A stretch of DNA of 37,313 nucleotides from Dictyobacter arantiisoli (GTDB lineage: Bacteria; Chloroflexota; Ktedonobacteria; Ktedonobacterales; Ktedonobacteraceae): assembly GCF_008326305.1 (NCBI RefSeq), contig NZ_BIXY01000072.1, positions 1-37,313 of the forward strand. The letters are read 5' to 3'. How positions within the stretch are numbered: position 1 is the first letter of the stretch; the number at the start of each line of letters is the position of its first letter. Position numbers and translations under genes: made by a program. The notes under the pieces were generated by a model that was given only the letters and a program-made list of their open reading frames with translations, did no database searches and was not told where the DNA came from. Of this stretch, positions 23,569-26,036 are shown one piece after another.

Positions 23569-23610
23569 CTGGTAGAAAAAGAGCATCACCCGCTGTCCTC
23601 TACTTTGTTC

Positions 23611-23668
23611 ACAGAAACACGAAGGGCTCCTGATCCAATGAGTGATCAGGAGCCCTTCGTGTTTCTGT
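23611..23668. terminator. Perfect 25 bp hairpin between convergent genes
   Basis: Arm 23611-23635 is the exact reverse complement of 23644-23668, with an 8-base loop. It lies between the lytic transglycosylase gene and the - strand gene ending at 23670. It is probably a two-way terminator, although no T-tract follows. Confidence 0.65.
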
Positions 23669-23669
23669 G

Positions 23670-23945
23670 TCAATCATCACTGACCAGACCTTGCTCATAG
23701 AGCCATTTTACAAAATGCATCCGATAATCTTCTGTGACGCGTTGGCGCATTTCCTCATTTTCATAGAGATGTTCGCGTAGATGGAGCAGCGCCACTGCCT
23801 CATCCCATTGAAAGCCGCTATCTAACAGATAATCCAGCATCAGTTGTTCGTTGCCTGTACCAGGAGTATAGTGTTTGGCCTCGGTTTTCCTCGTAATATG
23901 TTTGGGCTGCTCAGAAAATCTTTCAAATGGTTGCATATTTCTCAT
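23670..23945 (-). CDS. Small hypothetical protein
   Basis: A 91-residue soluble protein I do not recognise. The N-terminal third is polar (QPFERFSEQPKHITRKTEAK). The remainder is helical and acidic (LMLDYLLDSGFQWDEAVALL, REHLYENEEMRQRVTEDYRM, FVKWLYEQGLVSDD). I chose ATG 23945 because GAGGAG lies five bases upstream on the - strand; an extension of 19 residues has no such site. It is read toward the lytic transglycosylase gene and divergent from the sigma factor gene. The sequence contains no cysteine pairs, signal peptide or recognisable DNA-binding motif. Confidence 0.65.
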   Translation of the reverse strand: MRNMQPFERFSEQPKHITRKTEAKHYTPGTGNEQLMLDYLLDSGFQWDEAVALLHLREHLYENEEMRQRVTEDYRMHFVKWLYEQGLVSDD

Positions 23946-24082
23946 CCCTACTCCTCTATGTCTGCTGTTAATGAATGTGCTTGCGCTATGATAGCTATCC
24001 ACTCCCTCCTCACATCTGACGATCAGTCGTGTGGCGACATACCTTCTTCTATCGGCGTGCTTTATGCTCCCCTATACCTATC

Positions 24083-24112
24083 TTGACTGAGGACTCTTGC
24101 ATACCCTATCAA
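24083..24112 (+). promoter_or_regulatory. Candidate promoter for the sigma factor gene
   Basis: TTGACT at 24083-24088, an 18 bp spacer and TATCAA at 24107-24112, about 105 bases before the chosen start. Confidence 0.35.
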
Positions 24113-24216
24113 GGGACCTGTGCCAATATTAAGAACGCTTGCTTGGAAGCTACACTCTACACAACAGTGAGCGGGGGATGTGTGGAAATGGCTGTCTATG
24201 CAAGAAGGGATGTCGT

Positions 24217-25176
24217 ATGGGTACAGATGCACCAGTGGAAGTTGAACAACTCTGGGCCAGATATGTAGAGCATAAAACGTCTAAACTGCGCAATGAATTA
24301 ATCACACTCTATGCGCCTCTCGTGCGATTTGTAGTTGGACGACTGGGTATACCGCCAACCGGATTATTGGATGCTGAAGATCTTGTCAGCTATGGTATGA
24401 TTGGCCTAATTAATGCAATTGATCGCTTCGACCCTATGCGTGGTGTACGCTTTGAGGCTTTTGCCTCCGTACGTATTCGGGGCGCGGTGATTGATCAACT
24501 GCGATCACTTAACTGGCTACCACGATCAGCAATCTCGCGTTTACGCCAGGTTGAAGGTGCATTGGCGGTATTAGAGCAGCGCCTGGGACGACCGGCGAAG
24601 GAGGGAGAGGTTGCGGAGGAGATAGGGGTGTCGACAGAACGTTATCGTCAGATGCTACTAGAGATGAATGCTACGGTGCTCTCTCTCGATGCTCCACTTG
24701 GCTCTCTCCTTCAGGATGATGAGGTAACCTCCCTGTCCGAATTACTTGAGGATCAAAGCTCTCCCGGTCCCGTTGAGCAGGCGGAACAGCAGGAATTGAC
24801 AGATGTTTTAGGAAACGCTATTGATCATCTACCTGAGCGTGAAAAGTTATTGCTTGCCCTCTATTACCAGGAAGAGCTCACGATGAAGGAGATCAGCAAA
24901 GTCCTGAGCGTTTCAGAGTCACGTGTCTGTCAATTACATATTCAAGCTATTATGCGTTTAAGAAGTACTTTACATGCCTATCGTCTCGATGATATCCCGC
25001 CGACCAAAGTTGTGAGTGTGGGAGGAGAAGGCAAAAAAAGGATCACTGGCGGAAAGAGTAATAGTGCACGCAAGGTCAATGCCAGTCCGGCGGCTCGATC
25101 CTATGTTTCTTCGGAAACAGGAAAATCCAATGCACTTTCAGGAAATGGGTCGCGTGGTCGGCGAAAAATTTCCTGA
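24217..25176 (+). CDS. RNA polymerase sigma factor, FliA/WhiG (sigma-28) type
   Basis: A 319-residue sigma-70 family protein. Region 2 (about 27-98) includes DAEDLVSYGMIGLINAIDRFDP and VRIRGAVIDQLRSLNWLPRS, the hallmark of the FliA/WhiG/SigD group. Region 3 lies at about 105-165. Region 4 (about 204-253) has LPEREKLLLALYYQEELTMKE's leading part and the helix-turn-helix ISKVLSVSESRVCQL. A basic, Ser/Gly-rich tail of about 60 residues is an extra feature. Such factors control flagellar genes in motile bacteria and, as WhiG, spore formation in Streptomyces aerial hyphae. ATG 24217 has AAGGGA six bases upstream and fits the family start; the open frame extends 26 codons further upstream with unconvincing sequence. 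A probable FlgM-like anti-sigma gene and csrA follow. Confidence 0.92.
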   Translation: MGTDAPVEVEQLWARYVEHKTSKLRNELITLYAPLVRFVVGRLGIPPTGLLDAEDLVSYGMIGLINAIDRFDPMRGVRFEAFASVRIRGAVIDQLRSLNWLPRSAISRLRQVEGALAVLEQRLGRPAKEGEVAEEIGVSTERYRQMLLEMNATVLSLDAPLGSLLQDDEVTSLSELLEDQSSPGPVEQAEQQELTDVLGNAIDHLPEREKLLLALYYQEELTMKEISKVLSVSESRVCQLHIQAIMRLRSTLHAYRLDDIPPTKVVSVGGEGKKRITGGKSNSARKVNASPAARSYVSSETGKSNALSGNGSRGRRKIS

Positions 25177-25289
25177 CGTCTCTCTACACTTGCTTTGACG
25201 ATACCCTATCGAAGACGGATAGGGAACCGATATATGGTGTATGATGATGGAGGGAGAATTGATGAGCGGGGAACGATGGAACATCTGGC

Positions 25290-25295
25290 TATAAT
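25290..25295 (+). promoter_or_regulatory. Candidate -10 box before the FlgM-like gene
   Basis: A perfect TATAAT 33 bases before ATG 25328. No good -35 is visible; TTGATG at 25259 is too far away. Confidence 0.3.
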
Positions 25296-25327
25296 GCAAC
25301 GTGTTTTCTTATAGGGGAGTCGTTTCC

Positions 25328-25636
25328 ATGAAAGTAGGTAGTGTGAACTCATATCTGTACCTGGTCGGTGCGCAGCAGAGGAGATGTACCAAAAAACCAA
25401 GCGGGAGGACGATGCCGTCGTTGTCGTGGGTTGATCGGGTGGCTCGCGCGGCATGTCTGGTCCTGCTCAAAGGGACGAGACGTGGTAATGAGCCTGGGCC
25501 GATACTGGCATACCCTGCGCAACTTGACAAATTGCGCGCACGTATCCAGGTCGGTTCATATGGTGTTGATAGCATTACCCTGGCGAGGTGTATACTAGTA
25601 AATGAAACTCATTTTTTATCCATACACCAGGAGTGA
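25328..25636 (+). CDS. Probable FlgM-like anti-sigma-28 factor
   Basis: A 102-residue protein. Its C-terminal part, LDKLRARIQVGSYGVDSITLA (split here as LDKLRARIQVG and SYGVDSITLA, about 66-86), matches the FlgM pattern: a helix, I..G.Y.VD, then helix A..(I/M)L. The start MKVGSVNSYLY and the basic middle followed by DRVARAA also recall the layout of Gram-positive FlgM proteins. FlgM binds sigma-28 and holds it inactive. GGGGAG lies eight bases before ATG 25328, and a TATAAT is 33 bases upstream. It sits between a sigma-28-type gene and csrA, the expected position for such a regulator. The N-terminal half is weakly conserved in this family, so the call rests on the short C-terminal motif and on context. 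I am moderately sure. Confidence 0.5.
   Translation: MKVGSVNSYLYLVGAQQRRCTKKPSGRTMPSLSWVDRVARAACLVLLKGTRRGNEPGPILAYPAQLDKLRARIQVGSYGVDSITLARCILVNETHFLSIHQE
25566..25596 (+). promoter_or_regulatory. Candidate csrA promoter
   Basis: TTGATA at 25566-25571, a 19 bp spacer and TATACT at 25591-25596, inside the end of the FlgM-like gene. It would give csrA its own transcript with a leader of about 220 bases. Confidence 0.35.
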
Positions 25637-25820
25637 TTGTATTAATTAGCCAGGTTCGCTCTACCCACAGTGTTATCCCTTTGCGTCTTGTACGAGCGGC
25701 ATGTCGACCCGCATTCGCTACTCGATCTTCTTATGCGGTCACGCTGAAAGAGGCGCCCTTGCTAATGTTAGTCGCGGCGCAGGGACGCTTAGGCTATGCT
25801 TCTTATGAAGGGAGCTTTAC

Positions 25821-26036
25821 ATGCTTGTTTTGCGACGAAAAGTTGGTGAAAGTATTGTTCTTGCCGGGGTTATCAACGTTTCAGTGTTGGCTGTCGAAGG
25901 CGAGCGCGTAAAAATCGGAATTAGCGCGCCTCCGGATGTGACTATTGTGCGTGAAGAACTTCTCCGCAACAATGATGCAGATCCAACTCAAAATCCGAAT
26001 ACACCAATACCTCCAGCACAGCCACAGCCTCGGTAG
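25821..26036 (+). CDS. csrA: Carbon storage regulator CsrA
   Basis: A 71-residue CsrA/RsmA. It opens with MLVLRRKVGESIVLAG, followed by VEGERVKIGISAPPDV and IVREEL, the signature of this RNA-binding dimer. CsrA binds GGA motifs in mRNA leaders and controls translation and stability; in Gram-positive bacteria it is often antagonised by FliW and controls flagellin. The C-terminal extension from residue 50 (Asn/Pro/Gln-rich, PIPPAQPQPR) is typical in position but has no recognisable fold. AAGGGAG precedes the ATG at a normal distance. No fliW gene is visible nearby. It follows the sigma factor and FlgM-like genes in the same direction. Confidence 0.95.
   Translation: MLVLRRKVGESIVLAGVINVSVLAVEGERVKIGISAPPDVTIVREELLRNNDADPTQNPNTPIPPAQPQPR

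Follow-up and report, generated by a model that had tools for sequence, protein, structure and literature searches.

The bacterial family to which the window genome belongs has probably lost its flagella yet keeps together a FliA-type sigma factor (sigma-28), an FlgM-type inhibitor and CsrA, three proteins that normally run flagella. Because the flagella are gone while the gene cluster and its conserved control DNA persist, what was once a motility switch probably serves another purpose in these organisms. We favour, with some reserve, the reading that the cluster is the regulatory centre of a flagellar system that has since disappeared, retained and rewired to work as a stand-alone transcription switch. 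The window, that is, the whole stretch of 37,313 nucleotides analysed here, corresponds to contig 72 in a draft genome (G000) of 7.2 Mb that is 97% complete. The genome is Dictyobacter-like (Ktedonobacteria) and belongs to a filamentous soil bacterium with non-motile, spore-forming relatives. The genome sample comprised 47 genomes of the class, in which f1 denotes the window's own family and f2 to f4 are other families of the same order.

Flagellar genes in the window genome and its relatives

Profile searches of the 97%-complete draft found no FlhA, flagellin or FliW (PF02623). This genome-wide result bears out an earlier note made from the letters of the window, which had seen no flagellar structural gene and no fliW, and had taken a non-motile, spore-forming filamentous host as its premise. 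That premise fits as well: Dictyobacter, whose species supply the sequences nearest to the window sigma-28 in our tree, is described as non-motile and mycelial, forming spores or sporangia (PMC12453558), and Ktedonobacter racemifer is non-motile and spore-forming (PMC3236041). The parts of the Ktedonobacteria literature that we consulted describe non-motile members only.

Within the same order as the window genome, f3 (G002-G007) is a flagellate family. Each of its six genomes has flagellin and FliW, which none of the others among the 47 has; full-length FlhA was found in four of the six, and two f3 genomes have FlgM close to proteins reading as FlgK and FlgL. Short FlhA matches, each covering about 70-110 of 657 positions, also exceeded the Pfam cut-off in two f1 genomes (G020, contig C7, and G046, contig C908); one more short match, in the f1 genome G024, stayed below it.

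In the phylogenetic tree, the sigma-28 sequences of f1 and f3 form a single clade (support 100/99) beside other Chloroflexota sequences, and flhA lies about 1 kb from sigma-28 in the three f3 genomes that have both genes on one contig. Because the sigma factors of the flagellate family and of the window's family share one clade, we consider from these sequence comparisons that the flagella probably disappeared while their regulatory genes stayed.

A conserved cluster and the csrA leader

The sigma-28 gene (24217..25176, plus strand; ATG at 24217, stop at 25176) encodes a 319-aa protein of the FliA/WhiG family that scores 246 bits against TIGR02479 (FliA_WhiG; cut-off 189.6), 219 bits against the FliA subfamily model NF005413 (cut-off 201) and 261 bits against the WhiG equivalog NF004935, whose cut-off is 343. 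Past region 4 the protein carries a basic, low-complexity C-terminal extension (24976-25176). The gene that we call FlgM-A (25328..25636, plus strand; ATG at 25328, stop at 25636; 102 aa) stands between sigma-28 and csrA (25821..26036, plus strand; 71 aa), the product of which reaches 67.9 bits against PF02599 (cut-off 27) and has the residues L4 and R44 that are highlighted in a figure of a CsrA review. The cluster described in the earlier note is thus real: sigma-28 and CsrA exceed curated cut-offs, and the 102-aa protein can be placed as FlgM-type through its relatives.

Sigma-28 is followed by csrA on the same strand within about 2 kb in 23 of the 23 f1 genomes with sigma-28. FlgM-A lies between them in genera g1, g3, g5, g7, g8 (three of four genomes), g9, g10 and g12; g4 and g11 lack it there, and all that resembles it in g2 is a short C-terminal reading frame. 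An FlgM-type gene, recognised by score or by cluster position, is present in about 20 of the 23 non-flagellate class genomes with sigma-28, and FlgM exceeded the cut-off in none of the 17 non-flagellate class genomes lacking sigma-28 (the one exception, the fragmented g11 draft G041, is left out of this count).

An ECF-type promoter-like element, TACCC-N17-CGTC (25662..25687, plus strand), is located 133 nt before csrA and recurs, with one-base variants allowed and the N17 spacing kept, in 19 of 22 distinct csrA leaders. It is followed by a conserved 98-nt leader (25726..25823, plus strand; model R1) that runs as far as the csrA ATG. In each of 25 f1 genomes, R1 finds a single stretch that ends at csrA, and it finds none in other families; one genome has a further weak match elsewhere. 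Two candidate CsrA sites can be recognised in the leader: CAGGGAC (25780..25786, plus strand), whose AGGGA lies inside the conserved leader and resembles the SELEX consensus RUACARGGAUGU (PMC7652899), and AAGGGAG (25808..25814, plus strand), which is also the Shine-Dalgarno sequence and is kept as GGGAG or a close form across leaders. The g6 leader has lost the GGA of the first site. The leader had no match in Rfam; covariation in its pairing did not go beyond that of shuffles, and its folding was not clearly better than that of shuffled sequence. As for the protein, an ENxxA stretch after the CsrA core, present in the fliW-adjacent CsrA of f3, is missing from the f1 CsrAs compared; it also occurs in the CsrA of one f2 genome without FliW.

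Is CsrA part of the switch or a mere neighbour? With a promoter and leader of its own, it could well act independently of sigma-28 and FlgM-A, and we give this explanation somewhat less than even weight. It is favoured by the separate promoter-like element and the long leader, by g6, in which csrA retains its leader and sigma-28 was not found, and by f4, whose genomes lack sigma-28 and mostly keep csrA. Against it stands the adjacency kept throughout the sigma-28-bearing f1 genomes, whereas csrA and sigma-28 are on different contigs in f3.

Control DNA upstream of sigma-28 and FlgM-A

The -10-like element of the putative sigma-28 promoter, CTACACT (24150..24156, plus strand), lies 60 bp before the ATG and is preceded by two GGAC boxes. 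Box 1 (GGACTCTTGCA; 24091..24101, plus strand) matches the pattern in 8 of 11 sigma-28-bearing genera, lying 21-23 bp before box 2 (GGGACCTGTGCCAAT; 24113..24127, plus strand), and the distance from box 2 to the -10 is constant or nearly so across genera. TACACT is present in 10 of the 11 genera; the full pattern of GGAC boxes plus TACACT is found in eight (in g3 and g7 TACACT is in place but the boxes are degenerate, and g11 has neither), a count that is no independent test because the pattern was written after the sequences had been viewed. A frequent form of box 2 in the family is GGGAC-N4-GTCAAT, and GGGAC-N4-GTC may recall DosR-type boxes. Within the genus, GGGACYTNNGTCAAT has five matches, three at the sigma gene and two elsewhere; because it matches little beyond the sigma gene, these boxes do not point to a wider regulon of their putative activator. 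Control of sigma-28 mRNA by CsrA through the conserved GGAC motifs was considered and rejected, since the motifs are upstream of the -10.

Divergent from sigma-28 there is a 110-aa reading frame (23670-24002, minus strand) with no Pfam or NCBIfam match, and alignment of the upstream DNA suggests related frames in four Dictyobacter relatives. A long inverted repeat (23605-23679; CACAGAAACACGAAGGGCTCCTGATC...), probably a transcription terminator, separates this frame from a transglycosylase gene. Rfam miRNA-like matches at 23603-23679 sit on the repeat and were taken as chance.

FlgM-A is preceded by a sigma-28-like promoter, TATC-N15-ACCGATAT (25207..25233, plus strand), and relatives have one in the same place: TATTGA..TCCGATAC in Dictyobacter, TATTGA..GCCGATAC in Tengunoibacter and TACTGA..GCCGATAC in G020. 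The TATTGA..CCGATAC element was seen before FlgM-A in some genera only (g1, g3 and g10); in g8 and g12 it is weaker. Classical sigma-28 promoters before the flagellin genes of f3 were weak candidates at most, and two f3 flagellin upstream regions have TCAA..GACGATAC in common.

Search for a regulon and possible outputs

Three motif searches did not define a sigma-28 regulon. In the genus, TAAA-N14/16-GCCGATAW gave 26 matches against 24 for a reversed-pattern control, and TATTGA-N12/15-NCCGATA gave 29 against 25. Across the family, the excess of TAYTGA-N11/15-NCCGATAC came mainly from one repeated sequence in one genome; when this genome was left out, 56 matches stood against 47 in the control. 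The idea, put forward in the earlier note, that the circuit has been redirected to development drew no clear backing from the motif searches, which did not clearly exceed their controls. Because these searches gave no regulon, sigma-28 could in principle serve any output.

Development is the most natural output given the sporulating, non-motile host, and a developmental role for the circuit is plausible. A more detailed proposal, which we hold tentatively and put a little short of an even chance, is that spore or sporangium development in a Chloroflexota family is timed by a sigma-28/FlgM switch that works without flagella, is released otherwise than by flagellar export, is turned on through an activator-dependent promoter that is conserved, and arose independently of WhiG-RsiG; a csrA that regulates itself would stand next to it. 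We think it rather unlikely that the circuit instead controls a non-developmental output such as type IV pili, surface proteins or c-di-GMP enzymes. The Rubrobacter RsiG-WhiG switch, inferred to control type IV pili (PMC8325347), offers a precedent; however, nothing seen here suggests pili, and the genus is mycelial and spore-forming (PMC12453558).

The FlgM-type protein and selection on the cluster

On its own, the 102-aa protein has no Pfam match, and so does not reach the 25-bit cut-off of PF04316 (FlgM); against TIGR03824 it scores 13 bits (E 0.12). Its FlgM identity, which the earlier note had proposed to check by HMM search, therefore fails for the window protein alone and is supported through its family. 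PF04316 was matched by 9 of 12 aligned FlgM-A relatives (E up to 1, best 1e-10). It would be surprising if the 102-aa protein owed its C-terminal likeness to chance and were some unrelated small protein with no anti-sigma function: such an explanation would account for the lack of a significant match by the window protein itself, but its positional counterparts in other genera exceed the Pfam cut-off (G020, 41.5 bits; G027, 32.8; G030, 31.1; G043, 25.7), and the FlgM-A family profile retrieved from the PDB nothing but a FlgM (9wsf_B, E 0.0013). In the family alignment the C-terminus is conserved, and many members have NETHF after it; the middle is variable, and the N-terminus is short and conserved in part. 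AlphaFold2 predicts two C-terminal helices (62-75 and 82-97) with moderate confidence and the rest with low confidence. The window genome carries a second FlgM-type gene on contig 14 (G000:C14:56220-56306; L001, L187; 103 aa, 27.7 bits). In several relatives the second copy comes after a gene that, judged by eye, reads like a MurJ-type flippase; g11, too, has this second copy.

In Dictyobacter and Tengunoibacter, pN/pS, calculated from uncorrected proportions, was 0.14-0.24 for sigma-28, 0.09-0.24 for csrA and 0.42-0.85 for the fast-evolving FlgM-A; by this measure purifying selection on sigma-28 and csrA is strong. The descent of sigma-28 in one clade with flagellar sigma-28, and its retention under selection, support part of the interpretation in the earlier note. 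That the genes have no present function and are decaying remnants of the lost flagellar system is most improbable: FlgM-A is variable, being missing from the interval in g4 and g11 and reduced in g2, and sigma-28 was not found in some lineages, but the purifying selection on sigma-28 and csrA and the conservation of the sigma promoter region and the csrA leader across genera argue against it.

A proposed circuit

In the stand-alone switch that we favour, sigma-28 would be made from its own activator-dependent promoter, with tandem GGAC boxes before the TACACT -10. FlgM-A is predicted to hold sigma-28 by means of its C-terminal helices. FlgM-A itself would be transcribed from a sigma-28-type promoter and would therefore close a negative feedback loop. 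How might FlgM be released from sigma-28 without export? Because no flagellar export apparatus exists, FlgM-A would need another route of removal, which could be proteolysis, a partner protein or dilution; the question is testable. CsrA would be expressed from the separate ECF-type promoter and may act as a repressor of its own translation, forming a bridge between the GGA site of the leader and that of the Shine-Dalgarno. The likely output, and the least certain step, would be a surface or developmental programme, for instance sporangium or spore formation.

The regulatory DNA and the second FlgM-type gene add to what the earlier note contained. New here are the promoter-like array before sigma-28, the sigma-28-like promoter before the FlgM-type gene, and the TACCC-N17-CGTC element and conserved leader of csrA. 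Judged by titles and the openings of abstracts, the few papers found that join Ktedonobacteria with sigma factors, WhiG or CsrA, or Chloroflexi with FlgM, hold no account of such a circuit. With the flagellate family of the same order as a reference, the cluster would show a motility control circuit outliving the flagellum, and it offers an entry into the development of actinomycete-like Chloroflexota.

Comparison with known systems

The FliA-FlgM circuit of Salmonella, Bacillus and f3 has in common with the present one a FliA-family sigma factor, an FlgM-type protein with C-terminal helices (predicted here) and, in several genera here, a sigma-28-like promoter before flgM. It differs in that the window genome, without FlhA, flagellin and FliW, has no flagellar export of FlgM, and in that sigma, FlgM and CsrA here form a single cluster whose control DNA is different.

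WhiG-RsiG of Streptomyces and Rubrobacter likewise puts a FliA-family sigma factor to non-flagellar use, and the Streptomyces host is also mycelial and sporulating. The described partner of WhiG is RsiG (PMC8325347), whereas the one found here is FlgM-type, and the sigma factor scores below the WhiG equivalog cut-off; the parallel with WhiG drawn in the earlier note holds as an analogy and does not extend to that score or to the partner found here.

CsrA-FliW-flagellin homeostasis in B. subtilis and Campylobacter also depends on a protein of the CsrA family, and the residues L4 and R44 are shared, but FliW and flagellin are absent here, the C-terminus lacks ENxxA and the leader is family-specific. 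Finally, E. coli CsrA represses its own translation (PMC7652899), and the proposed inhibition through GGA motifs in the leader and at the Shine-Dalgarno resembles that autoregulation, although the leader sequence is particular to this family and the CsrA sites are candidates recognised by motif.
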